Shown: positions 7,907 to 51,686 of the stretch, one piece after another
Layout: each line of letters starts with the position of its first letter
Position numbering within the stretch: the stretch's first letter is position 1
Assembly (NCBI GenBank): GCA_002786785.1
Contig: PCUD01000166.1
Span: 7,315-71,314 of the forward strand
From: Ignavibacteriales bacterium CG18_big_fil_WC_8_21_14_2_50_31_20
GTDB lineage: Bacteria > Bacteroidota > Ignavibacteria > Ignavibacteriales > Melioribacteraceae
Length of the DNA: 64,000 nt
Reading direction: 5' to 3'
Translations under genes and position numbers: made by a program
The notes under the pieces: generated by a model
The model's input: only the letters and a program-made list of their open reading frames with translations
The model's database searches: none
Told to the model about the DNA's origin: nothing

Positions 7907-9138
7907 TGAAAAATAGAATTTTTATTACTGCCGGATATAATACAATTTCTTTAGGAACTGGGCGAAAAGAGTTTAATCCTAAAAAAGAAAGACCAGGATT
8001 GGAACATTATATTAAAGAAGCCGGAGCAACCACCTTAAAGCTAATTGGTGGAGCACAAAATGTAGATGAAACAATTATTTCTAACTTTAATGCTGCACAA
8101 TATAACCATCAAGGAAATTTACCTGGATATGCTCCGTTTATAGATGAAAATTTACGATATCAACCTTCAACACGAGTTGAAGGAGCATGTGGTTCAGGTG
8201 GACTTGCATTGGTAGCAGGAATAAAATTTTTATTATCTGGTGAAAGTAATGTAATTCTTGCACTTGGTGTGGAAGTTCAAAATACTGTTAAAGCTGTTTA
8301 CGGAGCAGATTATTTAGCTATTGCTGGTTGGTGGAAAGATAGAAAAATTGGACATGCACACTTTTTCCCTGGTCAATTTAGTGATAGAGCTGGTAAATAT
8401 TATGAAAAGTTTGGCAAGGAATATACTAGAAAAGGGATGATACAATGGTATGTAAACGCTATAAATAACGCACGTTTAGATGAAACAGCTCAAGAATATC
8501 ATAATGCTGATATAAATTTAAAATTAACAGCTTCTGTTGAGCCTAATGGGAGAACATTTGTCGATAATTTGTCTGTTTATGATTGCTCTAAAGTTTCTGA
8601 TGCTGCATCTGCATTAGCCTTAATGACTGAGGAAGGATTAAAGAGATGTAATATCAAACTAGAAGATACTATCGAAATTATTAGTTTCGCTCAAGCAGAA
8701 GATGATATAACAACTAGACCCGAAGATGCAACTAGATTACTTACCACTGAAAATGCTGTTAAAAAAGCACTTACAAAAGCATGTATTACAATAGATCAAA
8801 TATGTACTGTAGAAACTCACGATTGTTTTACTATTGCAGGAATTATGGCGTTAGAAGCTATTGGTTTTGCGGAGTATGGCAAAGGACCAGAATTTGTTTC
8901 AAATGGTAATACTGCAAGAAATGGTAAAATTCCTTTTAATTCTACTGGTGGTTTAATTGGCTGGGGTCATCCTGTGGGAGCAACTGGAATTCACCAAGCC
9001 GTTACAATTTTACAACAATTAACTGAAAAAGCTGGCAATGCTCAAATAAAATTAGATGTAAACAAACCTTATGGAATGACAATTAATATGGGTGGAGATG
9101 ATAAAACAGTAACTTGTATTATATATAAAAAGCCTTAA
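7906..9138 (+). CDS. Thiolase-family acetyl-CoA acyltransferase
   Basis: A 410-residue thiolase that catalyses acyl-CoA cleavage or condensation. The acylated Cys is about residue 95 in EGACGSGGLAL, and the His is in GGLIGWGHPVGATG. The C-terminal end reads NMGGDDKTVTC where classical thiolases have a second catalytic Cys in CxGxG, so it looks more like the SCP2-type thiolases. I chose the ATG at 7906, which overlaps the TAA of the dehydrogenase by one base and has GGGGGGAA upstream, over a TTG at 7891. Its partner is the 3-hydroxyacyl-CoA dehydrogenase upstream. Confidence 0.85.
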   Translation: MKNRIFITAGYNTISLGTGRKEFNPKKERPGLEHYIKEAGATTLKLIGGAQNVDETIISNFNAAQYNHQGNLPGYAPFIDENLRYQPSTRVEGACGSGGLALVAGIKFLLSGESNVILALGVEVQNTVKAVYGADYLAIAGWWKDRKIGHAHFFPGQFSDRAGKYYEKFGKEYTRKGMIQWYVNAINNARLDETAQEYHNADINLKLTASVEPNGRTFVDNLSVYDCSKVSDAASALALMTEEGLKRCNIKLEDTIEIISFAQAEDDITTRPEDATRLLTTENAVKKALTKACITIDQICTVETHDCFTIAGIMALEAIGFAEYGKGPEFVSNGNTARNGKIPFNSTGGLIGWGHPVGATGIHQAVTILQQLTEKAGNAQIKLDVNKPYGMTINMGGDDKTVTCIIYKKP

Positions 9139-9231
9139 TTTATCGTAGTTCTGATTTTAATAAAATAGTATTCGCATAATGTATATTATGTAAACAACTA
9201 AATTATTGTTTTTATTATATTACTTTTTGTT

Positions 9232-9435
9232 CTATACCCCATTCAATTTTACGATAAGATAGATAATAACTAAAACAAATACTAAAAGATAAATTGGCAC
9301 TTTATTTATTTTTCTTGTTTTTGAATCTGAGCGGAAGTTTAACTTTTTTTTTCGTTTTTCCATCTTATCATCTTCTGGATTATAAAATCTTGGTATGTAA
9401 TCAAAATTTTTATTATTTATTTTTTTAAAAAACAT
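9232..9435 (-). CDS. Small basic single-pass membrane protein
   Basis: A 67-residue protein with a soluble, strongly basic first half and one membrane helix at the end (about 46-65, VPIYLLVFVLVIIYLIVKL). The first half contains FDYIPRFYNPEDD, a motif I recall from short hypothetical proteins across Bacteroidota, sometimes mislabelled as riboflavin synthase beta. The function is unknown. It lies 7 nt downstream of the lipid kinase gene on the same strand and converges with the thiolase gene. Confidence 0.6.
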   Translation of the reverse strand: MFFKKINNKNFDYIPRFYNPEDDKMEKRKKKLNFRSDSKTRKINKVPIYLLVFVLVIIYLIVKLNGV

Positions 9436-9442
9436 ATAACCT

Positions 9443-10354
9443 CTAAATATGTTTACACATAAAATTTAATTTCATGTCAGCTAAACTAATTTTAATAGAT
9501 TTAGCTTTATTTGTTACTATTTCTCCGTCAATGTGAGCATAAAAAGGAGTTTTTAATTCTAATTCCAATTTATGAAAATTATATTGTTTTAGCTCTTTAA
9601 GATTTGTCAATGAATTAGACATTGCTCTTGGGAGCAAGGCTAACAATTTAATTCGGGACTTAATACTCACGACACTTAAATTAAGTATATTATCGTCAAT
9701 TTTAGCATTAGGCATTAAATATAATCCCCCTCCAATGCTCCGACCATTACCAACGGCACAAAAGAGTGCATTTCCTGAAATATTATTACTATCTAAGTAG
9801 GCAGTAAAATCTATTTTGGTAAATTCAAACAATGATTTCAATATTGCAACAATATATGACAAAGTTCCACTAAATATTTTATTGTTTTGATTGAAATATG
9901 CAACTTTTGCATCAAATCCCACACCAAAACTGTTTATTAGACGTTTTTTATATTCTTTTCCATTTTCTTCAAAAACTTGTACATTCCCAAAATCTATTTT
10001 TCTAATTTTAGGATCTTCGGATAAATAGTAATTAAAAAGTGATATATTATCCATTTTAGACTTATGGAATGACAAAGAAAAATCATTCCCAGACCCAATC
10101 GGGATTAGCCCTAAAATTGGATTAGAATTTAAATTTAAACCATTTATTACTTCGTGTAATGTTCCGTCACCACCACAAATTATAATTCTTTCATAACTTG
10201 AAACTTTTTGAGCTAATTCTGTTGCATGTAAAGGTCTTTCTGTTAAAACAAACTCAATTCGAGGGTCATTTGCATGTAAACTTTTTAACTTTTCGAAAAA
10301 TTTTATTCCATTACCCTTTCCAGATTCTGGATTTACAATTACAGCTATTTTCAT
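9443..10354 (-). CDS. Diacylglycerol/lipid kinase family protein
   Basis: A 303-residue lipid kinase of the DagK/YegS family. The opening MKIAVIVNPESGKGNG and the catalytic loop GGDGTLHEVINGL (61-73) are diagnostic, and LIPIGSGNDFS follows near residue 98. The C-terminal beta-sandwich ends in FYAHIDGEIV. The likely substrate is diacylglycerol or a related lipid, phosphorylated with ATP at the membrane face. The exact lipid cannot be read from sequence. I use the ATG at 10354; a TTG one codon upstream is also possible. Confidence 0.85.
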   Translation of the reverse strand: MKIAVIVNPESGKGNGIKFFEKLKSLHANDPRIEFVLTERPLHATELAQKVSSYERIIICGGDGTLHEVINGLNLNSNPILGLIPIGSGNDFSLSFHKSKMDNISLFNYYLSEDPKIRKIDFGNVQVFEENGKEYKKRLINSFGVGFDAKVAYFNQNNKIFSGTLSYIVAILKSLFEFTKIDFTAYLDSNNISGNALFCAVGNGRSIGGGLYLMPNAKIDDNILNLSVVSIKSRIKLLALLPRAMSNSLTNLKELKQYNFHKLELELKTPFYAHIDGEIVTNKAKSIKISLADMKLNFMCKHI

Positions 10355-10383
10355 CAATATTATCTAATTGTTTAATGTTAAAT

Positions 10384-11178
10384 TTAGAAATCCAATTTTC
10401 TCATACCAATGTGGCATAAAGCAAAATCATACTTTACTGGGTCATTCGAATCTATTTTCTTCAAATTATTTGTAATTTCTTCAGCCATTTTCCATGAAAC
10501 ATTTTTAAGTTTAGTTAATTTTAATTTTTGACTTATTTGAGCAATATGGGTATCTACTGGAATTACTAATTTGTCAGTTGGAATTTCCTTCCAAAGACCA
10601 AAATCAAGCTCATCTTTCCTAATCATCCATCGCAAAAATAGATTTTGCCTTTTGCAAGCACTCCCCTTTAGTGGATCAGGAAACATGAAATTAATTCCAC
10701 TTGAAGATATTTTTGAAGATTTTACAACAATATTTGTTAGATTATTTGAGAAAAATGAAAGTGCTCCTTTTATGTTATCGGCTTTTTCGAAATAGTATAA
10801 AAGAAATAGATAATTTAAGGAACCATAAGTTGTGTAAATTTTGTTTAATCCAGCAAATAATGCAGCAGTATCTTCTCCCGAATAAAATCGATGTTTTATA
10901 TTTGCAAATAAAGTTTTATCCTTATTGTGGTTATAATTAGTTACAAAGTCAAATGGATCATTTCCCATAATTTGAAACACTGATTCCAACGATTTTATAA
11001 TTTGTGCTACGCCTCCATAAGCAAAAACAGAAGCTATAAAAGCAGCAATTTCAATATCTTTATTGTTCGTAAATCTATGAGGAAATTCTAATGGGTCGGG
11101 AGAAATTGTTTTTCTATCAAATGCTTTGTAATGATAGTTGAGTTTATTTTTGATTTTTTCTTTTGTAAGTCTTGGCAT
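10384..11178 (-). CDS. TIGR02757 (DUF2400) family protein
   Basis: A 264-residue protein of the TIGR02757/DUF2400 family, known from Bacteroidota, Chlorobiota and other lineages. Its C-terminal half looks like an HhH-GPD-related helical fold: VIPVDTHIAQISQKLKLT, followed by KYDFALCHIGMRKLDF. The start region DPLEFPHRF and IAAFIASVFAYGGVAQI is characteristic. A nucleic-acid role is suspected from the fold but not shown. The ATG at 11178 is used; the frame also has a TTG four codons upstream. Confidence 0.78.
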   Translation of the reverse strand: MPRLTKEKIKNKLNYHYKAFDRKTISPDPLEFPHRFTNNKDIEIAAFIASVFAYGGVAQIIKSLESVFQIMGNDPFDFVTNYNHNKDKTLFANIKHRFYSGEDTAALFAGLNKIYTTYGSLNYLFLLYYFEKADNIKGALSFFSNNLTNIVVKSSKISSSGINFMFPDPLKGSACKRQNLFLRWMIRKDELDFGLWKEIPTDKLVIPVDTHIAQISQKLKLTKLKNVSWKMAEEITNNLKKIDSNDPVKYDFALCHIGMRKLDF

Positions 11179-11219
11179 AATTTTAATCAATTATTTATAA
11201 TGTTCTGGATACCAAATAT

Positions 11220-11930
11220 TTATTTAATTAAACTTCTCATTTCCAAAATTGCTTTTTCTAAACCGACAAAAATTGAACGTGCAATCACGGCTTGTCCAAT
11301 ACTTACTTCATCAATTCCTTCAACTTCTAAAAAATCTTTAATATTTGCGTAATTTAATCCGTGACCAGCATTTACGCCAAGTCCAAGTTTTTTAGCATGC
11401 TCAACAGCCAATTTAATTCTATCAAGTTCAAGAAACATTTCAACTTCTGTTTTGGAATTAGCATAAGTGCCTGTATGAATTTCTATCATGTCAGCATCAA
11501 TACCATGAGAAGCATCAATTTGTTCTATATCTGGTTCAACAAAAAGTGATACTAAAATATTTTTTTCATGAAGACGAATAATAGCATTTCGAATTTGTTC
11601 AAGATTATCAATTACATTGATTCCACCTTCGGTAGTTAATTCCTGTCTTTTTTCTGGAACCAAAGTAACCAATTCGGGCTGAATATCGCAAGCAATTTCA
11701 ATTATTTCATCAACAGCAGCCATCTCTAGATCAAGTTTTGTTGTAATCATTTCACGTAATAACCGCACATCTCTTTCATTAACATGTCGTCTATCTTCAC
11801 GCAAATGCACTACAATTCCATCAACCCCAAATTGTTCTGCCATAAGTGCGAAAGTTACTGGATCTGGTTGTTGCTCCCCCCTTGCATTTCTTAATGTGGC
11901 AACGTGGTCAACATTCAACGTAAATTTCAT
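11220..11930 (-). CDS. pdxJ: Pyridoxine 5'-phosphate synthase
   Basis: A 236-residue PdxJ, which condenses 1-deoxyxylulose 5-phosphate with aminoacetone 3-phosphate in the DXP-dependent vitamin B6 pathway. The TIM-barrel signatures are all present: LNVDHVATLRNARG, HLREDRRHV, the catalytic Glu region VTLVPE, EIHTGTYA and NAGHGLNY. The length is normal. pdxA and pdxB are not nearby. GAGGATATA precedes the ATG as the ribosome binding site. Confidence 0.92.
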   Translation of the reverse strand: MKFTLNVDHVATLRNARGEQQPDPVTFALMAEQFGVDGIVVHLREDRRHVNERDVRLLREMITTKLDLEMAAVDEIIEIACDIQPELVTLVPEKRQELTTEGGINVIDNLEQIRNAIIRLHEKNILVSLFVEPDIEQIDASHGIDADMIEIHTGTYANSKTEVEMFLELDRIKLAVEHAKKLGLGVNAGHGLNYANIKDFLEVEGIDEVSIGQAVIARSIFVGLEKAILEMRSLIK

Positions 11931-12718: not shown

Positions 12719-14281
12719 CTAATTCTTTTTAAATAGTTTGTAATTTATACTATCTGTAAGTGCTTGTAATGATGCTTGAATAATATTTTCAGAAACTCCA
12801 ACTGTTGACCAAGTATTATTTTTGTCTCCCGATTCAATTAATACACGCACTTTTGCTGCAGTTCCATCGCCTTCACCAAGCACGCGCACTTTGTAATCAA
12901 TCAAATGAACATCATCTAATTTTGAATAAAACCTTCGTAATGCTTTGTGCAAAGCTTTATCAAGTGCATTTACTGGTCCGTGCCCTTCGGCTGCTGTGTG
13001 TTCAATTTCGCCATTTACTTCAACCTTTAAAACTGCTTCTGAATATTCAGAACCCTTGTCGTCGAACATAACATTTACTTTTGCATAAACAACATTAAAG
13101 TAGGTTGGCAGTTGGTTAAGTTCATTGCGCAGTAACAATTCGAAGGAAGCTTCTGCTCCATCAAACTGAAAACCTTTGTATTCAAGATCTTTTAGAAAAT
13201 GGACAAATTTTTTATTGAATTCTTGATCATCTGGTAATTCTATTCCAAGTTTAGCAGCTTTATATCTAATATTACTCTGTCCTGATAAATCAGAAACAAT
13301 AACTCGCTGAATATTTCCAACTGCATTTGGTTCAAGATGCTCATACATTCTGCTATCTTTTAACACCGAACTAACATGAATCCCCCCTTTATGAGCAAAA
13401 GCGGATTTACCGACAAACGGAGCACGAGTATTTGGAGAAACATTCATCATTTCAAAAACAAAATTTGAAAGCGAAGTAAGATTTTTTAAATCCAATTCAA
13501 ATATAGTTTCTCTTTTCATTTTTAGAATTAGATTTGGAATTATTGTACAAAGGTCAGCATTACCACAACGCTCACCTACTCCATTCATTGTACCTTGAAT
13601 GTGAGTTGCACCAGCTTGAACAGCGGCAATTGAATTAGCAACAGCAACTCCGCCATCGTTGTGAGCATGAATTCCAATAGGAATTTCAATTTGCTTAATC
13701 GTATTTTCTGTAATATCAAATACCTCGTGAGGAAGTGAGCCGCCATTTGTATCGCAAAGGACAATTGTATCTGCCCCACCTTTAACAGCGGCCTTACACA
13801 TTTTGATAGCAAAGTTTTCATCATCCTTGTAACCATCGTAAAAATGCTCGGCATCAAAAATAACTCTGCGACCTTTTTCCACAAGAAATTTAACAGATTT
13901 GTAAATCAATTTTTCATTTTGTTCATCTGTTAATCCAAGCGTTTTTTCAGAATGGAAACGCCAAGTTTTTCCAAATATTGTTATAATTGGTGCATTTGAA
14001 ACTACAAGTTTGAGTAAGTTATTATCGCTTTCAATTCTATCAGGATAACGGGCTGTTGAGCCAAACGCACATATTTTTGAATTTTTAAGTTTCAAGTTTT
14101 GAACTTTTTCAAAATATTCTTCGTCTTTTGGATTACTACCTGGCCAACCACCTTCAATAATGTTAATTCCAAATTCATCCAATCTTTTTGTTATTTCTAA
14201 TTTATCATGGATGGAAACATTAACGCCTTCGCCTTGAGTACCATCTCTTAAAGTTGTATCAAATAATTCTAATTTTTTCAT
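12719..14281 (-). CDS. cimA: (R)-citramalate synthase
   Basis: A 520-residue CimA that condenses acetyl-CoA with pyruvate. The product is turned into 2-oxobutyrate by LeuCDB for isoleucine synthesis. The N-terminal HMGL-like barrel starts LFDTTLRDGTQGEGV, and the substrate-region block INIIEGGWPGSNPKDEEYF separates this clade (TIGR00977) from LeuA. HAHNDGGVAVANS holds metal ligands. The C-terminal LeuA-type regulatory domain (about 390-520) may bind isoleucine. It is the last gene of the ilv-leu operon, 119 nt after leuD across a repeat. Confidence 0.88.
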   Translation of the reverse strand: MKKLELFDTTLRDGTQGEGVNVSIHDKLEITKRLDEFGINIIEGGWPGSNPKDEEYFEKVQNLKLKNSKICAFGSTARYPDRIESDNNLLKLVVSNAPIITIFGKTWRFHSEKTLGLTDEQNEKLIYKSVKFLVEKGRRVIFDAEHFYDGYKDDENFAIKMCKAAVKGGADTIVLCDTNGGSLPHEVFDITENTIKQIEIPIGIHAHNDGGVAVANSIAAVQAGATHIQGTMNGVGERCGNADLCTIIPNLILKMKRETIFELDLKNLTSLSNFVFEMMNVSPNTRAPFVGKSAFAHKGGIHVSSVLKDSRMYEHLEPNAVGNIQRVIVSDLSGQSNIRYKAAKLGIELPDDQEFNKKFVHFLKDLEYKGFQFDGAEASFELLLRNELNQLPTYFNVVYAKVNVMFDDKGSEYSEAVLKVEVNGEIEHTAAEGHGPVNALDKALHKALRRFYSKLDDVHLIDYKVRVLGEGDGTAAKVRVLIESGDKNNTWSTVGVSENIIQASLQALTDSINYKLFKKN

Positions 14282-14295
14282 TTTATTTTAGATTT

Positions 14296-14378
14296 GAGAG
14301 ATTAGATATGAGACACAAGAAATTACCAATTGTTATGTCTTAATCTTTCTCTTAATCTTACTCCTAATCTTTTTTCTA
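14296..14378. repeat. Dispersed intergenic repeat, family B copy 1
   Basis: The gap between leuD and cimA reads, on the minus strand, AAGATTAGGAGTAAGATTA, then a variable part, then CTTGTGTCTCATATCT. The gap upstream of the 90-residue gene at 48977 carries a very similar sequence in the same orientation. It has no ORF and no strong hairpin. Confidence 0.6.
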
Positions 14379-14400
14379 AATTCTATTTGAAAACAATAAT

Positions 14401-14961
14401 TTAATCTATCATTCCACTTTTTCGGGCATACTTGAAAAGTCCACCAGCTGAAACTATTGGCAACACATCTCCAAGTGGATTTAAATTAAAAGTCTCTCCA
14501 GTTGTATTATTGACTAAAAGATTATTTTCAATATCAATCTTTAATACATCCCCAGTTTTAACTTTTTCATTCAATTTTTCTTTTGTTTCGTATGGAATAA
14601 CAAAACCGCCATCAACAGAGTTGCGATAAAATATTCTTGCATAAGATTCTGCTATTATTACCTTTGCACCAGCTTTCTTAAGAGCGTATGGAGCATGTTC
14701 ACGCGAAGAGCCGCAGCCAAAATTTGAACCTCCAACAATAATTTGATATTCTGATTCAAATTTATCTTTTTCAACAAAAGGAATGTTACCTTCTGGCAAA
14801 CCAGACTTTTCTTTCGGAACACTCGAAAGAGCAAATTTACCATACATTTTAGCTTCGTTTTCATCATCCATGCTATATACAAGATGTTCAGCAGGAATTA
14901 TTTGATCAGTATCAATATTATTTCCTAATACAAATGCTTTTCCAATTACTATATTTTCCAT
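14401..14961 (-). CDS. leuD: 3-isopropylmalate dehydratase small subunit
   Basis: The 186-residue swivelling subunit of isopropylmalate isomerase. It has the aconitase-swivel signatures NNIDTDQIIPAEHL and GSNFGCGSSREHAPYAL. The complex with LeuC interconverts 2- and 3-isopropylmalate. With CimA in the operon it very likely also isomerises citramalate. The length fits the archaeal/Thermotoga-like LeuD form. It starts 24 nt after leuC. Confidence 0.92.
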   Translation of the reverse strand: MENIVIGKAFVLGNNIDTDQIIPAEHLVYSMDDENEAKMYGKFALSSVPKEKSGLPEGNIPFVEKDKFESEYQIIVGGSNFGCGSSREHAPYALKKAGAKVIIAESYARIFYRNSVDGGFVIPYETKEKLNEKVKTGDVLKIDIENNLLVNNTTGETFNLNPLGDVLPIVSAGGLFKYARKSGMID

Positions 14962-16293: not shown

Positions 16294-17874
16294 TTAAATC
16301 TCACCTTTTAATTCTTCTTCATTTTGAAGTTTGTTTTTAATTCTTTCATGGTGTTCTTTTTTATTTATAGCCTGAATATATGCTTTCCCACTTGCTTCAA
16401 TAATATCAGTTGATACACCAACGCCAGTATAAGAGCGATCATCTTTTCTAATTCTAACAGCAACTTCACCAAGAGCTTCTCTGCCTGCAGTTACTGAACG
16501 AACACGATATGATTCAACGGTTGGTTTTTTATCAATTGCTCTATCAATTGCATTAAATAATGCATCGACAGGACCATCACCCGTTGCAGAATCTTCATTT
16601 ACTTTTCCGTCAACTTTTATTCTAACAGTTGCGGTTGGAATTGTTGAAGAACCACCAAAGACATGCATATATTTTAAGTCATAAATTGCTTCATTTCTAT
16701 TTTTGGAGTCGCCCATAAGAATTCTTAAATCGTCATCATAAACTTCCTTCTTTTTATCTGCTAATTTTGTAAAGGATTTATAAATGTTATTCAAATCTTC
16801 TGGAGCAACTTTATATCCAAGTTCATCTAGGCGTGCTTTTAAACCATGCCTTCCAGAGTGTCTTCCTAAAACAATTTTTGTATTTTGCACTCCAACAGTT
16901 TCTGGTGTCATTATCTCGTATGTTTCACGATTCTTCAACATTCCGTCCTGATGAATTCCAGATTCGTGTGCAAAAGCATTTTCACCAACAATAGCTTTGT
17001 TTGGTTGAACAATAATGCCAGTATAACCAGAAACTAATTTTGAAGTGTTCATTATTTCTTTTGTATCTATTTTGCTTTCAATACCTAAAATATCTTTGCG
17101 CACTTTTAATGCCATCACAATTTCTTCAAGTGCTGCATTGCCAGCACGTTCACCAATTCCATTTATTGTGCATTCAACTTGGCGTGCACCATTCTCAATA
17201 CCAGCAATGGAATTAGCAACCGCAAGACCAAGATCATTATGGCAATGCACACTAATAATTGCGTTCTCAATATTTTTAACTTTCTTTTTTAAGTATGCAA
17301 TTTTTTCACCAAACTCTCTTGGGAAAGTATATCCAGTGGTATCGGGAATATTTATTGTTGTTGCACCAGCTTCAATAGCAGCTTCAATAACTTCAACAAG
17401 ATAATTCAAATCGGTACGTCCAGCATCTTCTGCAGAAAATTCAACATCATCAACTAGTGATTTTGCATACTTTACCATATCATAAGACATTTTTATAATA
17501 GTTTCACGCTTTTCAGCCAGAGTTCTACCATATCTATCGTCTCCAAACTTACCAAGAATATGATAATCAGAAGTACTGGAGAATGTATGAATTCTTTTCT
17601 TCTCACCATTTTTAATTGCATCGTAAGCAGATTTGATATCAATTTCTTTTGCGCGCGCAAGTGCTGCAACTGTCACTCCAACTTCATTTGAAATGCGTTC
17701 AACGGCTTCATATTGTTCGGGAGATGAAACTGGAAATCCAGCTTCAATTACATCAACATTTAGCTTTTCAAGTTGCTTTGCAATTTCAACTTTTTCTGAA
17801 ACACTTAAAGATGCTCCAGGTGATTGCTCGCCATCACGCAATGTTGTATCAAATATTATTAATTGATTATTCAT
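16294..17874 (-). CDS. leuA: 2-isopropylmalate synthase
   Basis: A 526-residue LeuA that joins acetyl-CoA and 2-oxoisovalerate in the first step of leucine synthesis. IIFDTTLRDGEQSPGASL at the N-terminus, ISVHCHNDLGLAVANS with metal ligands, and GENAFAHESGIHQDG are the expected blocks. The C-terminal domain (about 390-510, including SATGDGPVDALFNAID) is the leucine-binding regulatory domain, so feedback inhibition is likely. It sits 11 nt after leuB and 12 nt before leuC in one transcription unit. Confidence 0.93.
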   Translation of the reverse strand: MNNQLIIFDTTLRDGEQSPGASLSVSEKVEIAKQLEKLNVDVIEAGFPVSSPEQYEAVERISNEVGVTVAALARAKEIDIKSAYDAIKNGEKKRIHTFSSTSDYHILGKFGDDRYGRTLAEKRETIIKMSYDMVKYAKSLVDDVEFSAEDAGRTDLNYLVEVIEAAIEAGATTINIPDTTGYTFPREFGEKIAYLKKKVKNIENAIISVHCHNDLGLAVANSIAGIENGARQVECTINGIGERAGNAALEEIVMALKVRKDILGIESKIDTKEIMNTSKLVSGYTGIIVQPNKAIVGENAFAHESGIHQDGMLKNRETYEIMTPETVGVQNTKIVLGRHSGRHGLKARLDELGYKVAPEDLNNIYKSFTKLADKKKEVYDDDLRILMGDSKNRNEAIYDLKYMHVFGGSSTIPTATVRIKVDGKVNEDSATGDGPVDALFNAIDRAIDKKPTVESYRVRSVTAGREALGEVAVRIRKDDRSYTGVGVSTDIIEASGKAYIQAINKKEHHERIKNKLQNEEELKGEI

Positions 17875-17885
17875 TTTTCTTCCAA

Positions 17886-18983
17886 TTAAAGTGTAAATAC
17901 ACTCTCTTTATTTTCTTGATAAATTATATCAAAGTTCTTGATTATCATTTCTGTCATTTTATCAGTTGATACAACATTTCCGTTATCGAGATTTATGTCA
18001 ACTGTTCTAAATCCTTGGTCGAGTGTTCTTTCAATTGCTTTTTCTATCAAATCGGCTGTTTCTTTCATTCCAAATGATAAATCGAACATCATTGCAACAG
18101 AGCCAATCATGGCAATTGGATTTGCTTTATTTTGTCCTGCAATATCTGGAGCGCTTCCGTGAACTGGTTCATACAAAGCATATTTATCACCAAGGCTTGC
18201 TGATGGAAGCATACCAAGACTTCCTGTAATCATTCCAGCTATATCACTAATTATATCACCAAATAAATTTGAGGTTACAATTACGTCAAATTGGCGTGGG
18301 TCGCGAACAACTTGCATTGCCGTGTTATCCACGTACATATTATTTAATTTCACATCTGGATATTCTTTGCTAACTTCTTCAACAACTTTTCTCCAGAATT
18401 GAGATACTTCCAAAACGTTTGCTTTATCAACAGATGTTAGTACTTTTTTTCTTTTTTGTGCAACTTTAAATGCTTGATGAGCTATGCGTTCAATTTCATA
18501 TTTTTCATAAACCATTGTATTGAAGCCTTTGTTTTCATCATAACCACGTGGTTCACCAAAATAGATTCCACCAGTCAATTCACGAAAAACGACAAAATCA
18601 GTTCCTAGAATTACACTTTCTTTTAGCGAAGAAGAATTAACAAAAGATGGATAAACCTTTGCTGGACGAATGTTTGTATATAATCCTAACGATTTTCTTA
18701 GCTTCAACAAAGCTGCTTCTGGTTTTAAATGATGTGCAAGATTTTCCCATTTATAGCCACCAACAGCACCTAGCAGAACAGCATCCGATTCATAACAAAG
18801 TTGAATTGTTTCATCAGTCAGTGGTGTTCCATAAGCGTCATAAGAGCATCCGCCCATAAGACTTTCAGTAGTTTCAATTGTTAAATCATATTTTTCAGCA
18901 ACGTGGTGCATAAGTTTAACTGCGGCAGACATAACTTCTGTTCCAATGCCATCACCAGGTAGAAGAGTGACTTTCTTTTTCAT
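17886..18983 (-). CDS. leuB: 3-isopropylmalate dehydrogenase
   Basis: A 365-residue NAD-dependent beta-decarboxylating dehydrogenase. Its blocks are LLPGDGIGTEVM, the substrate loop LLKLRKSLGLYTNIRPAKV, RELTGGIYFG, and the signature NLFGDIISDIAGMITGSLGM. The N-terminal length and ALLKLRKSL helix are those of LeuB and not isocitrate dehydrogenase. It probably also acts on 3-methylmalate for the citramalate route. It begins 3 nt after ilvC. Confidence 0.93.
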   Translation of the reverse strand: MKKKVTLLPGDGIGTEVMSAAVKLMHHVAEKYDLTIETTESLMGGCSYDAYGTPLTDETIQLCYESDAVLLGAVGGYKWENLAHHLKPEAALLKLRKSLGLYTNIRPAKVYPSFVNSSSLKESVILGTDFVVFRELTGGIYFGEPRGYDENKGFNTMVYEKYEIERIAHQAFKVAQKRKKVLTSVDKANVLEVSQFWRKVVEEVSKEYPDVKLNNMYVDNTAMQVVRDPRQFDVIVTSNLFGDIISDIAGMITGSLGMLPSASLGDKYALYEPVHGSAPDIAGQNKANPIAMIGSVAMMFDLSFGMKETADLIEKAIERTLDQGFRTVDINLDNGNVVSTDKMTEMIIKNFDIIYQENKESVFTL

Positions 18984-18986
18984 TAA

Positions 18987-19991
18987 CTAATCCTCATCAT
19001 TTTTGTTTTTAACCCAGCTCATCATTCCACGTAATTTAGCACCAATTTTTTCTATTGGATGTTCACTGTTTTCTTTACGAAGTCTTGTCATATTAGCTTT
19101 GTCACCATTAACTTCTGCAACAAAGTTTTTAGCAAATGTTCCATCTTGAATTTCTAACAAAGCAGCCTTCATTGCTTTTTTAGATTCTGCGTTAATTATT
19201 TTTGGTCCTGTTACATATCCACCATATTCTGCTGTATCACTAACCGAATAATTCATTCTTGATAAACCACCTTCGTAATAAAGGTCAACAATTAATTTCA
19301 TTTCATGCATTACTTCAAAGTAAGCAAGTTCTTCAGGATAACCAGCTTCTGTTAGTACTTCAAATCCAGCTTTAATTAATTCTGCTGAACCTCCGCAAAG
19401 GACAGCTTGTTCGCCAAATAAATCAGTTTCAGTTTCATTTTTAAAATTAGTTTCAATAACACCTGCTCTAGTTCCACCAATTCCTTTTGCCCAAGCTAAA
19501 GCCATTTCTTTTGTATTTCCAGAATAATCATTATGAATAGCTATCAAACAAGGTACACCATTCCCTTCTCTGAAAGTTCTACGTACCAAATGTCCAGGAC
19601 TTTTAGGAGCAATCATCATAACATTAATTGTTTCTGGAGGAACTATTTGTTTGTAATGAATATTAAAACCGTGAGCAAATACAAGAGTATTCCCGTCTTC
19701 CATATTTTGTGCAATTTGTTCATCATAAACTTTCTTTTGATCTTGATCAGGCAAAAGAACCATAACAACATCAGCCCATTTTGAAGACGCATCAATTTCC
19801 ATTACAGTCATACCTAAATCAGTTGCTTTTTTCCAAGAAGTTCCATCTTTTCTGGCACCAACAACCACGTTCATTCCACTTTCTTTTAAGTTTAATGCAT
19901 GCGCATGACCTTGACTTCCGAAGCCCAAAACCGCAATTTTCTTATCCTTAAGTGATTCTAACGATGCGTCACTATCATAATATGCTTTCAT
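18987..19991 (-). CDS. ilvC: Ketol-acid reductoisomerase, class I
   Basis: A 334-residue class I KARI, the second common step of valine and isoleucine synthesis. The Rossmann loop is [20 protein letters not shown]. The following [15 protein letters not shown] holds the residues that set NADPH or NADH preference; the Arg-Lys and Ser there suggest NADPH. Metal ligands are in the knotted C-terminal domain ([16 protein letters not shown] and [19 protein letters not shown]). It is 11 nt from ilvN and 3 nt from leuB. Confidence 0.93.
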
Positions 19992-42915: not shown

Positions 42916-43587
42916 CTAGGATGCTTTAGTATTTAAAAGGTCACTAGCATTAATAATAGAGTCGTTTTTAATGGTTTCTTCAAATAGCTGAGCAAGACGT
43001 TCCTTCTCTTTATTTCTTTTATCCTTATCAGGGCACAATTGATATCGTAAATGAAAAAGAAAAACAAATGGATTATCAATTCCTCCACCTATTCTCATTT
43101 CATGTTCATCTATAGGAGAATCAATATGTTGATGAACAGCAGGATGGAAAAGCAAACCATCTGAAACATTTTTAATTATCTTTGTTCGAACTATAGGTGC
43201 GAAATTTTTAAATTCTTTTTTTGCTTGTTGAAGTTTTTTAAATTTATTCAGAATGGATTCTTTTGGGAAAAGAAAATACGTAGTATCTACATCATGTTTC
43301 CAAATTAATTCTTGTTTACTAGGTATGTACAAAAATTTGACAGTATACTTTGATAAATTAGAAATTGAATAATCAATCAACATATTTATTTTAGTCGATG
43401 AAGTTAGTGAAGCAGCAAATGTGCTGTTCTTTGTTGGTGTTGGTGGATATTCTTCAATTTCCCAAAAATCTTTTAAACTCCTACCAAATTGAAATAACCA
43501 ATTTTTCCTATCTCTTTCACTTGAAGGAGAAAAACCCAATCGGATAACTTCCTGCCAGAGGTATGCTTTAATAATTTCATTATCCAT
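42916..43587 (-). CDS. Unrecognised protein, fourth gene of the SIR2-HerA operon
   Basis: A 223-residue cytosolic protein that I do not recognise. It has no signal peptide or membrane helix. Features are an early SSERDRKNWLFQFGRSLKDF, then a beta-rich middle and a conserved-looking DEHEMRIGGGIDNPFVFLFH near 165, followed by a charged helical tail. It starts 8 nt before the stop of the ATPase gene (ATG with GAGGA 7 nt upstream), so it is translationally coupled and belongs to the system. It might be an effector, an adaptor or an immunity factor; sequence alone does not say. Confidence 0.6.
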   Translation of the reverse strand: MDNEIIKAYLWQEVIRLGFSPSSERDRKNWLFQFGRSLKDFWEIEEYPPTPTKNSTFAASLTSSTKINMLIDYSISNLSKYTVKFLYIPSKQELIWKHDVDTTYFLFPKESILNKFKKLQQAKKEFKNFAPIVRTKIIKNVSDGLLFHPAVHQHIDSPIDEHEMRIGGGIDNPFVFLFHLRYQLCPDKDKRNKEKERLAQLFEETIKNDSIINASDLLNTKAS

Positions 43588-45475
43588 TTTCACATCCTCT
43601 TTTTTCTTTTAAATACTGAAGCACAATTTTAAGATTCTTTACCAACTCTGATTCTGCACTTTCAGTAGTTTCCACTAAATTTTCAAAAAATATTAAATCC
43701 GATTCAATATCTTCAATCGACAAACTTCCTAATAACTCATCTTCAAGTATGAAAAACTCAAATAATTCTCTTAACTGAACCCAATGAGGTAAATACTTTT
43801 GCAAATTCTCCAATGGTATCCACCAAATCATTTGATAACTAATAAAGTTATCTCTATGATTATTAAGAGCTTCCAATTGTTGTTCTGTCCATTCACCTTC
43901 GAATTCAAAAGAAAAAATGTCAAAATTTGATGAAAGGTTTTCTTCTAAAGATTTAATGGGATTTTCTGTTTTACCACCATTTAGGAGCATGTGATTATAT
44001 TTTTGGTACTCATAAGTATTTGCTTTTGCAAAAATATAAGCACGCGCTGCATTAAGTAGATCTCTATCTTTAAAACCAACCATAATTCTGTCTTTTCTGT
44101 CTTTTGATAATAAAGCAGCATTTATTAAATCCAATATTTCAATAAGTTTTAGTGGCAATGGATTTTCTATTTCAGCAGAAAGATACTCGTGTAAAATTTT
44201 ATCTACACTTTTGGAAGAACCGTCATCTTCAAGAATGTTAAAATCAAGTCCTATTGAACTTGTGCCATAAGTCTCGGCATACTGCAATAACAATGCTTGT
44301 TCTGGTTCCAATAATACCTTATTTTCATTTTCAAAAAAAGGTTTTACTAACGGATTAATACTAGCCGGCCAGGCGCCGTTTATTGAATCTTGTAAAATAA
44401 ATATCCAATTACCAAAAAGTGCTTCTTGAACAGTTTCTTTATCACCAGGCAAATATATGAGAGATGTTTCAACCTTTTTATCTTTCTCAATAGTTTTAAT
44501 TAGATTAGAAGAGGGTTTCCTGGCATAAGCAAAAAAATCATCGGTTGTCTTTTTAATTGCACGTAATAATTTTGTTGTTCTATCAATTGAGGTATTTTTA
44601 ATCATAGACTGAAAATGTGTTAGTATACGAATTCCTTGTCGTGGGTTACCACCAGACCACTTAGCAATAAGTTCTAATTCGTTTTCAATTGGTTGTGAAT
44701 ATACTCCCATTCTTTTCACAAGTATCTCAAGTACATTTTTTACATTAAGTGAAGAAATAAATATTTTTTGGGGATGATGTAGAAATGGTGTATTTATATC
44801 AGGTAAAAAAAGATGTAGTGCATTTACTTCAAACATTGTTTTAAAATTTGATAAAATTTCTAATGTGCTTTTTATAGAAATAAACGAAGAACTTTTAGTA
44901 TCAAACTTGTCAATTCCAGAAGCAAAGAAGTAAATAGCATTTTTTGAATTGTCCTTTATTAAATATCCAATATCTAATATGACTTTAATAATGTATTTGC
45001 TATTTTCTGTTACTTTTTTACGAGCAGTTACTTTGTTTTCAAAATTGGCTAATGAAAATTCTTTGGGAGATAATAAATTTACAACTTCTTTCCAATCATT
45101 AATCTCAAGTCCAAACAATTCTTTAGGTAGTTTTGAAAACGATAAATCCAATTCCAATTCAATTGCTTTATCAATGAATCCAGTTAGAAGAATACTAAGA
45201 AAATCACCCTCATCAAGATTTAAACTTTCTTGATCAAATTGGAATTTAATATCAGGTTTAAGATTATTATCAGAAAATATTTTTGTAAGCAGAGTACTTT
45301 TACCCGATCCGATTTGACCACCTAATAAAATTGATTCTTCTGTTGAATCATCTTCTATCCATTCTTTAATCTTTTCTGCGTAAGATTGAAAGCAAGGGAC
45401 ATACAATTTATCAAGTGCTTCTTCAGAAAGAGGTAATCCTTCATCCAAATTTATTCCAAAACGATTGAATTTCAT
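43580..45475 (-). CDS. Large P-loop ATPase of the SIR2-HerA operon
   Basis: A 631-residue protein with an ORC/STAND-like ATPase domain. The Walker A loop is LLGGQIGSGKSTLL (about 51-64). A probable Walker B is NAIYFFASGIDKFD. WSGGNPRQGIRILTHF looks like the sensor-2/winged-helix region of ORC-type AAA+ proteins. The C-terminal third is helical and acidic with no motif I know. The ATG at 45475 lies 4 nt after the herA stop with AGAAGGA upstream; a longer frame to 45523 would overlap herA. It may sense infection or load HerA. Confidence 0.72.
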   Translation of the reverse strand: MKFNRFGINLDEGLPLSEEALDKLYVPCFQSYAEKIKEWIEDDSTEESILLGGQIGSGKSTLLTKIFSDNNLKPDIKFQFDQESLNLDEGDFLSILLTGFIDKAIELELDLSFSKLPKELFGLEINDWKEVVNLLSPKEFSLANFENKVTARKKVTENSKYIIKVILDIGYLIKDNSKNAIYFFASGIDKFDTKSSSFISIKSTLEILSNFKTMFEVNALHLFLPDINTPFLHHPQKIFISSLNVKNVLEILVKRMGVYSQPIENELELIAKWSGGNPRQGIRILTHFQSMIKNTSIDRTTKLLRAIKKTTDDFFAYARKPSSNLIKTIEKDKKVETSLIYLPGDKETVQEALFGNWIFILQDSINGAWPASINPLVKPFFENENKVLLEPEQALLLQYAETYGTSSIGLDFNILEDDGSSKSVDKILHEYLSAEIENPLPLKLIEILDLINAALLSKDRKDRIMVGFKDRDLLNAARAYIFAKANTYEYQKYNHMLLNGGKTENPIKSLEENLSSNFDIFSFEFEGEWTEQQLEALNNHRDNFISYQMIWWIPLENLQKYLPHWVQLRELFEFFILEDELLGSLSIEDIESDLIFFENLVETTESAESELVKNLKIVLQYLKEKRGCENG

Positions 45476-45479
45476 TTTA

Positions 45480-47213
45480 CTATTTCCTTCTCTGCTTCCG
45501 CATATTTTCAATGGACTTTTCAAAATTTGGATCTTCTGCTTCTTTCATCCATTCTGTCCAAAAATCAATCGTTGCACTCAACGGTTCTTCTTTTGGTTTA
45601 TTAATTCTTATTCTACTAGGCAACAATACTGCATCTCCAACGACAAGCCCTTCTCCGACATCCATAATTGGTAATACTTCCAAAAGACTTTCTAGACTTT
45701 CTGGCATTAATTTACTGACAGTACTTCGGTCAGCACCATTTGTTAAGCGAAGTGAAATAACATTATTGCATTGGCTTAAAATGGTTGTGCTTACATCCGA
45801 TGGTCTTTGACTAACAATTACTAATGAAACCCCATATTTACGCCCTTCTTTTGCAATTCTTTCAAAAGCTTCAATTGCACGAGTTTCAATTGGGTTTTTG
45901 CCGAATTTTTCAGGCAGATATAGATGTGCTTCATCACAAATAAGGGCGAGTGGACGCCGTTTTTCGTGATCGGTCCAAAATTGAACTTGATAAATAATAC
46001 GAGCAACAAGACCCACAATTATTGGTAAAATATCAGAAGGTACTTCAGAAAAATCAATAACTTTTATTTGAGCATTTTCTGTTGAATAATCCATCAACTT
46101 AGTTACTGTACGCGCCATAGCATTGTAATCATGTTCCGCCTTGGGAGCGCTAAATAAAAAACCATACCTTTTATCACTCAATCTACTTTTTAAACGAGTT
46201 AATAACCGGCTGAATTGGCCGAAGAATTGTCCTTGCTTTATCCCTCGTGTACCTTGAATCATTTCTTCATTCATATCATTTAAAGTCTGAATTACCTTAT
46301 CTAAGTCAAAAGGGACAGGGCTATCAAGCGTAAAAGCATTAAGTACATCTTTCTTTCCAAGTATTTTAAGAGTATTTTTTTTCTGATCAATAACAGCGTC
46401 CTGAAATGCCATAACTTGATTATGAGCACTAAATTCTGAACGATCTATAAACATGGATTGCATTTCTTCAGCATTTAAATACCAATAAGGTAAATACAAT
46501 AATTCATCTGAAGAAGTATCAAGTTCATCTGGGCCAGGAATCCTAAGGCGACGCGTGTATGAAAGATTACTATATTCGCCATGTAAATCAAATACAATTA
46601 GATTCGAGGTGGGAAGTTTTGCTGCTTGTTCTAGGATAGAAGCTACAGTCCATGACTTTCCAGAGCCTGTACTGCCAAGAATAGCTGCATGACGTTGAAA
46701 AAATTTGTTTCCATCAAGAAATGCTTTTGCAGTTTCATCTATTATATAATTACCAAGCTCTAAAGAATGCTCACCTTTTTTACCTGTTGCTGACAAAACT
46801 GACATAAAAGTTTCGAGTTGCTTTCCTAATAAAACAAAGCAATTATCTGTAATACCTGGAACTTGTGAAATGGAACGTGTGAAAGTTATTTTGCCTTTTT
46901 CAGCAACCCAACCAAAAGTCCCAACAAGTGTAAGTCTTACATTGTTTATTACTGGCTCACTTAAAACATCACTATCAGATTTATCATCATTGTTTTTATT
47001 TTCAATATCATGCTGACCAACAAACCTTATAACTTTTTCAATAATAGAAATAAGCCATATTTCAGATGCACCGGAAAGCTCAATTGCTACAAGTTGACCA
47101 ACACGCGCTTTTTTAAGGTCTTCATCATTTTCTACAAGTACGGAAACTTTTCTAGTATCTACTTCTCTAACCGTTCCTAGTTTTGATGATATATCAAAAT
47201 CCAAAATTGCCAT
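45480..47213 (-). CDS. herA: HerA-type hexameric ATPase
   Basis: A 577-residue HerA/FtsK-superfamily ATPase. The N-terminal HAS-barrel (about 1-90, GTVREVDTRKVSVLVEND) precedes the P-loop domain: Walker A AAILGSTGSGKSWTV, Walker B LALICDEAHLYLPE, the Gln sensor VIVSQRPSDVS, and RLTNGADRSTV with an Arg that may be the finger. It is encoded next to a SIR2-like protein, the pairing known from SIR2-HerA (Nezha-like) anti-phage systems, where HerA hexamers form a scaffold with SIR2. No NurA nuclease is nearby, so a repair role is less likely. Confidence 0.85.
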   Translation of the reverse strand: MAILDFDISSKLGTVREVDTRKVSVLVENDEDLKKARVGQLVAIELSGASEIWLISIIEKVIRFVGQHDIENKNNDDKSDSDVLSEPVINNVRLTLVGTFGWVAEKGKITFTRSISQVPGITDNCFVLLGKQLETFMSVLSATGKKGEHSLELGNYIIDETAKAFLDGNKFFQRHAAILGSTGSGKSWTVASILEQAAKLPTSNLIVFDLHGEYSNLSYTRRLRIPGPDELDTSSDELLYLPYWYLNAEEMQSMFIDRSEFSAHNQVMAFQDAVIDQKKNTLKILGKKDVLNAFTLDSPVPFDLDKVIQTLNDMNEEMIQGTRGIKQGQFFGQFSRLLTRLKSRLSDKRYGFLFSAPKAEHDYNAMARTVTKLMDYSTENAQIKVIDFSEVPSDILPIIVGLVARIIYQVQFWTDHEKRRPLALICDEAHLYLPEKFGKNPIETRAIEAFERIAKEGRKYGVSLVIVSQRPSDVSTTILSQCNNVISLRLTNGADRSTVSKLMPESLESLLEVLPIMDVGEGLVVGDAVLLPSRIRINKPKEEPLSATIDFWTEWMKEAEDPNFEKSIENMRKQRRK

Positions 47214-47215
47214 AT

Positions 47216-48304
47216 CTAATCTCCTAAAATTGTACTTACAAATATATCAACTTTCCAAAGCTCCTTATCATTTATTATTAAGGGCTCTGAATATTTCTTA
47301 TTTTTGATTATTGTTCCTATTTTATCATTGCTACAAATATGCCATAAATTTTCTGAACTTTGTAGTATCTTTTCAATTCTTTCGTTTGAATATTTAGTAA
47401 TAACTAGACCATTTGAGTTTTGATTTTGTAGCTTATTAATAATTGTATGGTTATTTAATTGGGTATCATTAAATCCAAACCCAAGAAATAAGAAAAAATT
47501 ATGTCTTTCAATTACGCTATCATATTTTCCCAATAATTCATTCCTAAATAGATGCAATTTTTCATACTTAGAAATACCTGGAGTGATAATAATTCTCTCA
47601 ATATTTTCAGGTTTCGTATATAACCAAGCATTGTTCTCAATCAGATGATCATTAATTAAAAATAGATTTAGTGATCCATGAACTTTATAAAGTGCAATGT
47701 GTTTTTCTTTTCTTAAAACTCTTTCAATTTTTTTCCCATGTGGAACATTTTCTATATATGTAATATTTCGTTTGCTCTTTTCCCAATTCAGCTTTCTATT
47801 GATACTCCCATAAAAACCATTAATATATGGAATACCATATTTTTCAAAAGCATATTCAGCCAACAAATCATAATTTGGAGTAGCTACATGCAATTCATGG
47901 TCTGTTCCATATAAGCCGTTAACAATTTTTTTGAATAAAGTTGAAGCTGGCCAATTTATTTCATTATTTAATATTTTTTGGGAATACTCAAAATCAAGTG
48001 TTCCAATAAAATTCCCAGTAATCTCTACAATGATTTTTATTAGTGAAATATCTTTTATACTATTCATTGCTGTTTCAAAATCAGCACCATCGTTTAAAGA
48101 TTCGAGGACACTATCCCATTCAATATTTTGCGAATTTGATAAATTTTCTCTTTTAATACATTCAATGAGGTGTTCCTTAAGATAATCCATACCAAATCGT
48201 TCATCAACAGCACAAGACATACCTGTTCCAAACAACACAAAAGGAGTGTCTTGAAAAAACTTTTGTAATTCTTTATAAGCTATTTCTTTTGTTAATACTT
48301 GCAA
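47216..48304 (-). CDS. SIR2-like NAD-binding protein
   Basis: A 362-residue SIR2-like protein, probably an NADase effector. Motifs are FVLFGTGMSCAVDERFG (Gly-rich NAD loop), TPNYDLLAEYAFEKYG (with the conserved Asn-Tyr-Asp), KVHGSLNLFL (catalytic-type His) and FLFLGFGFNDTQL. It has no zinc-finger Cys set, unlike deacylase sirtuins. In known SIR2-HerA defence the protein depletes NAD upon infection. It begins at TTG 48304; a TAA lies directly before it in frame, so no longer version exists. It is the first gene of the four-gene operon and its end provides the herA ribosome binding site. Confidence 0.8.
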   Translation of the reverse strand: MQVLTKEIAYKELQKFFQDTPFVLFGTGMSCAVDERFGMDYLKEHLIECIKRENLSNSQNIEWDSVLESLNDGADFETAMNSIKDISLIKIIVEITGNFIGTLDFEYSQKILNNEINWPASTLFKKIVNGLYGTDHELHVATPNYDLLAEYAFEKYGIPYINGFYGSINRKLNWEKSKRNITYIENVPHGKKIERVLRKEKHIALYKVHGSLNLFLINDHLIENNAWLYTKPENIERIIITPGISKYEKLHLFRNELLGKYDSVIERHNFFLFLGFGFNDTQLNNHTIINKLQNQNSNGLVITKYSNERIEKILQSSENLWHICSNDKIGTIIKNKKYSEPLIINDKELWKVDIFVSTILGD

Positions 48305-50240: not shown

Positions 50241-50600
50241 TTATAAATAATTTAAATTCATTTCTTCTGCAATTTTAAGTAACCTTTTATCAAGAGTCCA
50301 GATTTTAACATTTGCCATTTTGGTTGCAGCCAATAAATGAATATTAACAAATCCAACTCCACGTCCATACAATGAATATTTATTAACAAAAAACATAAAT
50401 TCATCATGGCTAAGTTTTTTTAACTTTGGAACACTTTCAAGCAAATCCAAAATGGGTTTTCTATTTTTGAAATTGCCAATAGCTAATTCACCAATAATAA
50501 ACTCGTGCATTTGGACAGTACCTCTATACAACAACGAATCTAAATTTTCATTTTTCTGTCTAAAATGGTCAATCCAAACAGAAGTATCAACTAATATCAT
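50241..50600 (-). CDS. vapC: VapC-like PIN toxin with altered active site
   Basis: A 119-residue PIN-domain RNase. VDTSVWIDHF carries the first acidic residue, HEFIIGELAIGN the second (Glu), and WTLDKRL the last. Where this branch usually reads WVDAHLLA, this protein has FVNIHLLA, so the third catalytic acid is Asn (codon AAT, one transition from GAT). Activity could be reduced or lost. It overlaps the antitoxin gene by 14 nt, as in intact VapBC pairs. Confidence 0.82.
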   Translation of the reverse strand: MILVDTSVWIDHFRQKNENLDSLLYRGTVQMHEFIIGELAIGNFKNRKPILDLLESVPKLKKLSHDEFMFFVNKYSLYGRGVGFVNIHLLAATKMANVKIWTLDKRLLKIAEEMNLNYL

Positions 50601-50861: not shown

Positions 50862-51311
50862 TTATTTTGATTCAACCATAATTGTTACTGGACCGTCATT
50901 TATTATTGTAACTTCCATCATGGCTTGAAAAATGCCAGTTTTTACTTTTTCATTACCAATATTTTCTTTAACACGTTCAATAAACTTTTCGTATAAATTA
51001 TTTGCTAATTCAGGATTTTCAGATTCAGTAAAACTGGGTCTATTCCCTTTTCTAGCATCGCCATAAAGTGTGAACTGTGAGATTATCAACATCTCGCCAT
51101 TTATATCTTTTAATGAAAGATTCATTTTATCATTTTCATCGCTGAAAATTCTGAGATTAGAGCATTTATCAGCAACAAAGTTAACATCTTCAATTGTATC
51201 GCCTTCTTTAACGCCGAGTAAAAGGACTATTCCATGTCCAATATTCTTTTCATAATTTTCGGAAGTAATTTTTACTCCACCACTTTTAACTCGCTGTACT
51301 AAAGCTCTCAT
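50862..51311 (-). CDS. dtd: D-aminoacyl-tRNA deacylase
   Basis: A 149-residue DTD that frees tRNA from mischarged D-amino acids and Gly-tRNA-Ala. Both signature motifs are visible: ISQFTLYGDARKGNRPSF (the SQxTL motif) and INDGPVTIMVES (the NxGP motif as NDGP). It lies between the two toxin-antitoxin pairs and is unlikely to be part of either. Confidence 0.92.
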   Translation of the reverse strand: MRALVQRVKSGGVKITSENYEKNIGHGIVLLLGVKEGDTIEDVNFVADKCSNLRIFSDENDKMNLSLKDINGEMLIISQFTLYGDARKGNRPSFTESENPELANNLYEKFIERVKENIGNEKVKTGIFQAMMEVTIINDGPVTIMVESK

Positions 51312-51314
51312 AAT

Positions 51315-51686
51315 TTATTTTTTAATGAAATTTACATTTGGCAAATTAATGAAATCGTAATCTTGCGTCCAGATTATTGCATTATTTAGCATGCCCGTCA
51401 CATAAATAATGCTATCAGCCATCGGCAATTTGTATTTAATATTAAATCTTGCTGCCTCAATTGAAACTTGGGGTGTAACATTTAATACTTTAGCTTGTTG
51501 CATTAATGCAATTGCACTTAATGCATAATTTTCATCTGTTTTTTGCAGAATTTTTTTATAAACTTCATAAATATTAATTACTGAGACAATAAGATTTTCA
51601 GTATTCTCAATTATTGGAGTATAATGTTTTGCGTTTGTGTCATCTATAAAATATTCTATCCACCCTGAGGAATCAACTAAATTCAT
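51315..51686 (-). CDS. VapC-like PIN toxin
   Basis: A 123-residue PIN-domain RNase toxin. The four acidic positions are present: VDSSGWIEYF (Asp), NIYEVYKK (Glu), LPMADSIIYVTG (Asp) and TQDYDFINL (Asp). The family cleaves tRNA or rRNA when released from its antitoxin. It overlaps the AbrB-like antitoxin gene by 4 nt and ends 3 nt before dtd. Confidence 0.87.
   Translation of the reverse strand: MNLVDSSGWIEYFIDDTNAKHYTPIIENTENLIVSVINIYEVYKKILQKTDENYALSAIALMQQAKVLNVTPQVSIEAARFNIKYKLPMADSIIYVTGMLNNAIIWTQDYDFINLPNVNFIKK

Follow-up and report, generated by a model that had tools for sequence, protein, structure and literature searches.

Why would a SIR2–HerA pair, a known bacterial ‘suicide’ defense composed of a SIR2 enzyme that destroys nicotinamide adenine dinucleotide (NAD) and the ring-shaped DNA pump HerA, share an operon with two further genes of new families? 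Iyer et al. (2004) is reportedly the source cited for the HerA-associated sirtuin system. The present locus lies in a 64,000-nt stretch of contig PCUD01000166.1 from Ignavibacteriales bacterium CG18_big_fil_WC_8_21_14_2_50_31_20, hereafter the window, in which four genes follow each other on the minus strand in the order SIR2, HerA, ATPase and small protein. Because the two extra proteins also accompany the pair in 15 unrelated genomes, spread over about seven phyla, the locus is probably a real four-part version of a known defense system, whose additional members would serve to recognize the invader or to activate SIR2–HerA.

The initial annotation described an operon with touching or overlapping gene ends, and all open reading frames (ORFs) and junctions were found as it had stated. 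The SIR2 stop at 47216 and the HerA ATG at 47213 are 2 nt apart as read from the sequence, and an A/G-rich stretch at the end of the SIR2 gene (TTAGGAGATTAG) is a possible ribosome-binding site for herA. Four nucleotides separate the HerA stop, ending at 45480, from the ATPase ATG at 45475, and the ATPase and small-protein genes overlap by 8 nt (ATPase end 43580, small-gene start 43587). The ORF list gives the ATPase an upstream TTG at 45523; relatives favor the ATG at 45475 (MKxNxxGIN), and for both this start and the small-protein ATG at 43587 they begin at the same residues. Identical gene order with similarly tight junctions recurs in 15 other loci, so the arrangement is not due to chance.

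To follow the four genes across bacteria, the window HerA was aligned with a Klebsiella plasmid relative, and a scan of 84,980 species genomes with this alignment returned 57 loci (designated by L numbers below). The ATPase gene lies directly behind HerA in 15 of these, and the small gene follows it in ten of the ten loci where sequence extends past the ATPase, in one case via a second contig of the same genome. SIR2 is located upstream in all 15 except L035, where it is absent, and is broken in L062. By record titles and NCBI ranks, the four-gene loci belong to Omnitrophota, Thermodesulfobacteriota, Pseudomonadota, Calditrichota, Acidobacteriota (with Aminicenantes), Ignavibacteriota and Verrucomicrobiota, about seven phyla in total; most are metagenome-assembled contigs, several of which end inside the ATPase gene, and contigs may be assigned to the wrong phylum. 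At well-supported forks, the HerA tree and the ATPase tree are in agreement, and the pairwise distances of the four proteins correlate with r = 0.84–0.94, a value reached in none of 2,000 permutations.

Searches with the ATPase in ~1,270 genomes of six phyla, plus the 15 genomes above, gave only the known loci, fragments of them and a few weak P-loop matches (E > 1e-5), and a search for the small protein across the window’s order (146 genomes) found it in two known loci only, one of them the Ignavibacteriaceae locus L062. Within these genome sets, neither gene was seen away from this HerA except for L099, a contig-edge ATPase fragment in the genome of L032 that lacks an adjacent small gene. 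In viral contigs, profile scans for the two proteins found none, and the ATPase as a single query had no match among plasmids, phages, viral contigs and genome contigs, the chosen peptide patterns probably not being conserved. The small protein is absent from four genomes of the window’s own genus, and the window HerA is nearest to those of Calditrichota, Omnitrophota and Desulfobacteraceae; both observations fit horizontal spread. Their co-occurrence with this SIR2–HerA, the agreeing trees and distances and the failure to find the ATPase elsewhere in the ~1,270 genomes searched identify the ATPase and small protein as its dedicated partners.

The larger system proposed in the initial annotation, thus, proved to be conserved, with both proteins accompanying this HerA, nearly always together with SIR2, in all 16 known loci; homologues occurring mostly without SIR2–HerA were looked for and not found. 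Its description of the two as ‘obligate’ partners holds in one direction. Neither protein was seen without this HerA bar the L099 fragment, whereas 36 of the 57 loci, with at least 2 kb behind HerA, have neither gene (six further loci end too early after HerA to judge). Together with the ability of SIR2–HerA pairs to work alone, these 36 related loci would suit two independent neighboring systems that share a transcript, a plain SIR2–HerA pair and an unrelated ATPase–small-protein pair. We regard this as highly improbable, as, apart from the L099 fragment, the ATPase was not found away from this HerA in ~1,270 genomes, nor the small protein in 146, and the proteins coevolve across phyla.

Table 1 Genes of the four-gene operon in the window.
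Feature	Position	Strand	Length and start	Basis
SIR2-like protein	47216..48304	minus	362 aa, TTG start	PADLOC SIR2 PDLC04086, Pfam SIR2_2, alignment to 8j4u chain A
HerA hexameric DNA translocase/ATPase	45480..47213	minus	577 aa, ATG start	PADLOC HerA PDLC04105, Pfam DUF87/HerA_C, alignment
ORC/STAND-type P-loop ATPase, new family	43580..45475	minus	631 aa, ATG start	AlphaFold2 model, Foldseek AAA+ matches, motifs
Small protein, new family	42916..43587	minus	223 aa, ATG start	Invariant HPxxHxH; kept right behind ATPase in relatives

Comparison with the PADLOC models placed the first two proteins as previously annotated. The matches (468 bits for SIR2, 755 bits for HerA) are strong and, therefore, make both proteins members of already modeled subfamilies, and Pfam assigned them to SIR2_2 and DUF87/HerA_C, respectively. 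In an alignment to the solved SIR2 8j4u chain A, residues N144 (TPNYD) and H209 (VHGS) of the window SIR2 fall on N168 and H227, respectively, so the NADase residues are retained. In Vibrio cholerae SIR2, where these two positions were located via alignment to the Escherichia coli protein, mutation of N168 or H227, or deletion of herA, abolishes or weakens immunity (PMC11559045). With its catalytic positions kept, the window SIR2 is a predicted NADase effector. HerA carries a Walker A motif (GSTGSGKS, 180–187) and, by alignment, a Walker B region (CDEAH, 426–430); its best PDB sequence matches are chains called ‘ATP-binding protein’ or HerA (9c1m, 8ziq and 8xau). Relative to the compared homologues from other contexts, SIR2 is only 24–27% and HerA 44–49% identical. 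A second SIR2-like protein without HerA (373 aa; L026, positions 9161–10282 of contig C148) is encoded in the same genome; the next gene product, of 1120 aa, matches PADLOC PDC-M43B weakly in its C-terminal part. The annotated ‘terminase large subunit’ of Blautia phage Montmirail (ON453898.1, 8860–10116) may be a HerA-type ATPase, as it shares 34% identity with the window HerA across 78% of its length.

For the ATPase, scans of Pfam, PADLOC and NCBIfam gave no family over the cut-off, including none of the Pfam STAND families, and only weak P-loop matches; no solved relative was found. An AlphaFold2 model (predicted local distance difference test (pLDDT) score 77.6; 15 aligned sequences) contains an N-terminal AAA+-like domain (to ~315), a winged helix-turn-helix (wHTH)-like segment (~323–373), read as such from helix/strand order only, and a C-terminal alpha/beta domain (~424–576). 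STAND NTPases combine a P-loop domain and a GxP-like lid motif with a C-terminal superstructure of repeats; here, Walker A and SGGNPRQ are conserved, but the C-terminal domain is not built from repeats. Foldseek returned many AAA+ matches for this model, including Orc1/Cdc6 2qby_A (E 8.4e-6, TMt 0.48), which agree with the ORC/STAND-like label given initially at the level of class, as whole-chain TM-scores are low. All 16 sequences share an N-terminal GxNxDxG motif, Walker A GQIGxGK, GhDK at the expected Walker B position and a sensor-1 Asn (ExN), and SGGxxRQ (SGGNPRQ) is almost invariant among them, with AGG in L039. Four of the 16 sequences have E directly before GhDK, where the Walker-B acid is expected, and the others have S, A, T or F, suggestive of a weakened hydrolysis site. 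Because this acid is replaced in most homologues, the ATPase is probably a slow nucleotide-bound switch and not a motor. Beyond the P-loop, the ATPase shows no profile similarity to DUF499 (hhalign) or to a BrxC-like protein from L042, and homology to HerA was likewise rejected.

The small protein is characterized by a motif, H148-P149-x-x-H152-x-H154 (HPxxHxH, residues 148–154), that is invariant in all complete homologues. Its moderately confident model (pLDDT 77.6) and its sequence had no credible match in Pfam, NCBIfam, PADLOC, PHROGs, PDB (sequence and fold) or BFVD (fold). Homology to the 170-aa protein of DUF499 systems was ruled out by comparison, and family searches, Pfam and PADLOC included, assigned none of the operon’s proteins to a nuclease family.

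Among the four-gene loci, SIR2 is the part most often damaged, and two close relatives, L035 and L062, likewise do not support a partnership that is ‘obligate’ in both directions. In L035, no SIR2 gene precedes those for HerA, the ATPase and the small protein, and the genome encodes no member of this SIR2 family at another site; in L062, SIR2 is broken by frameshifts and stops; and in L039, its catalytic His is replaced by Gln. The genes for HerA, the ATPase and the small protein are open in all three loci. Each of these is a metagenome assembly, in which errors are possible. Such damage is what one would expect if the effector is toxic, and it also allows for activities of the remaining three proteins that do not depend on SIR2. 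HerA, the ATPase and the small protein might, for example, form a primary DNA-directed ‘capture’ machine that pumps or processes invader DNA, with the small protein perhaps a metal-dependent enzyme acting through HPxxHxH and SIR2 a losable backup suicide effector. The persistence of the trio in L035, L062 and L039 and the invariance of HPxxHxH speak for this, as does the published anti-invader theme of HerA/FtsK with Orc/Cdc6 ATPases (PMC10853773). We nevertheless consider it unlikely, given that SIR2 is present with catalytic motifs in most loci, that the small protein matches no nuclease or other known fold and that a toxic effector gene is expected to decay first. The same loci bear on a further explanation, in which the ATPase and small protein act like an antitoxin or immunity protein and hold SIR2–HerA in check in uninfected cells. 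Dedicated partners encoded behind a toxic effector in one operon would be in keeping with this role, but their retention after SIR2 loss (L035 and L062) is unexpected for a pure antitoxin, and two-gene SIR2–HerA systems and many pairs of the same clade without ATPase and small protein need no restrainer, making it quite improbable.

The remaining loci of the clade show where the SIR2–HerA pair occurs without these partners. A type I restriction–modification (R-M) setting with the order HsdM–HsdS–SIR2–HerA–HsdR–YgjP was found in L051–L053, L055 and L066; L050, L054, L057 and L080 have versions of it that are incomplete or rearranged. These type I loci, mostly from gammaproteobacterial genera, have SIR2–HerA between hsdS and hsdR and a YgjP-like metallopeptidase gene behind hsdR. 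Bacteriophage exclusion (BREX) loci with PglX, BrxH and PglZ contain the pair in L040, L042, L046, L047 and L082, some of them incomplete, and operons of DUF499, PglZ-like (our own assignment from sequence), DUF1156 and SNF2 proteins do so in L068, L069, L075, L076, L081, L085, L086 and the plasmid L027. Like L027, L031 carries this operon type, and both represent plasmids of the Enterobacteriaceae genera Klebsiella, Citrobacter and Enterobacter, many of them clinical. In the other loci without ATPase and small protein, SIR2–HerA stands alone. More distant relatives, from the window’s phylum and from plasmids, are two-gene pairs or lie inside other large operons. On the HerA tree, the ATPase label needs four changes compared to 14.5 with shuffled labels, a pattern that does not tell gain from loss. 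Since clade members sit inside DNA-scanning systems (type I R-M, BREX and DUF499–DUF1156), the data suggest that SIR2–HerA is an effector plugged into a separate sensor. A Neiella marina contig (L059) harbors two clearly different SIR2–HerA pairs ~5 kb apart (8899–11740 and 17085–19821), the second by an hsdR-like gene.

By its two core genes, the operon is a SIR2–HerA system, a variant of Nezha/GAO_19 (PADLOC SIR2-HerA; PMC11559045, PMC11514479) with two extra genes. It shares with these systems HerA directly behind SIR2, NADase residues, Walker A and B motifs and strong model matches, and differs by the two further conserved, coevolving genes. In its logic, it is close to the HerA/FtsK–Orc/Cdc6 ‘capture’ systems, which likewise combine a HerA-type translocase with an additional, fast-evolving small protein and an adjoining ATPase of the ORC/Cdc6 clade that contains a wHTH-like segment (PMC10853773), yet it lacks two of their defining features. 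In capture systems, an inactive restriction endonuclease (REase) separates the AAA+ core from the wHTH, and an active REase is present as well (Rakesh, Aravind and Krishnan 2024, PMC10853773), whereas in the window ATPase model the AAA+ part runs straight into the wHTH-like segment, with the alpha/beta domain behind it and no inserted REase; no REase domain was detected in the operon, where SIR2 takes the effector’s place. The word SIR2 is absent from the main text of that paper. BREX and DUF499-centered BREX-related systems, the core ATPases of which (BrxC and DUF499) are of the ORC/Cdc6 type (PMC12839542), embed closely related SIR2–HerA pairs; unlike them, the window operon and its direct neighbors contain no methylase, PglZ or helicase, and hhalign showed no homology of its ATPase to DUF499. 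HerA–DUF4297 (PMC12198126) also uses the HerA hexamer as an effector platform, but with a nuclease instead of SIR2 and only two genes. The databases and open-access papers searched contained no description of a SIR2–HerA system with either partner family.

Starting from four genes in constant order, coinherited over about seven phyla, with intact NADase and HerA motifs, we infer a defense role, a complex and an input role for the ATPase and small protein. The reading that we favor, and hold to be moderately likely, is a four-component NAD-depleting anti-invader operon in which a SIR2–HerA effector is served by a dedicated input module. As in the two-gene systems of solved structure, SIR2 would be mounted as NADase subunits on a HerA hexamer. 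The ATPase and small protein would recognize invading DNA or a phage-made structure or product and then load or unlock the HerA ring, switching SIR2 on; NAD+ would fall and the infected cell would stop. The input role is proposed by analogy, because the three other homes of SIR2–HerA are DNA-scanning systems, two of them with ORC/Cdc6-type ATPases (PMC12839542). Several points weigh against this reading. Two-gene SIR2–HerA systems work without extra parts, so the additional pair need not be a sensor. Because HerA served as the seed of the main scan, the co-occurrence partly reflects how the loci were found, even though profile searches that used just the ATPase or the small protein gave known loci only. 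The window operon is flanked by housekeeping genes, with no defense island there. Finally, given its absence, breakage or altered His in L035, L062 and L039, SIR2 may not be the only effector. A bolder view, rather doubtful at present, is that HerA, the new ATPase and the HPxxHxH protein constitute a new kind of stand-alone invader-DNA sensing machine with SIR2 as a detachable NADase output. The SIR2–HerA pair would then be an interchangeable ‘kill switch’ that moves between such a machine, BREX and type I restriction enzymes, with the small protein representing a new enzyme or recognition fold.

The immediate neighbors of the operon are ordinary genes for a polysaccharide deacetylase and a sulfatase downstream and a dehydroquinase II upstream, and its G+C content is similar to that of the surroundings. 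Several other four-gene loci are flanked by defense-type genes. Further along the window, two PIN-domain (VapC-like) proteins are encoded on the minus strand (50241–50600 and 51315–51686) around a D-aminoacyl-tRNA deacylase-like gene (50862–51311). Scattered around the four-gene operon of L065 are four or more ORFs, mostly short or truncated, in which a TIR-like start (YDVFLSHSAKDKAVVRPLAERL) is repeated (8484–8732, 14189–14515, 16452–16670 and 18668–19174).

For the study of bacterial defense, one consequence is practical, in that tools limited to catalogued families would report only the SIR2–HerA pair at this locus. The presence of one SIR2–HerA clade in four settings, with the ATPase–small-protein module, type I R-M, BREX and DUF499–DUF1156, makes the concept of a portable NAD-depleting effector module testable. 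Moreover, the two dedicated extra subunits provide a concrete handle on the trigger of these systems, the sensing part of which may be separately encoded and could be added, removed or swapped.

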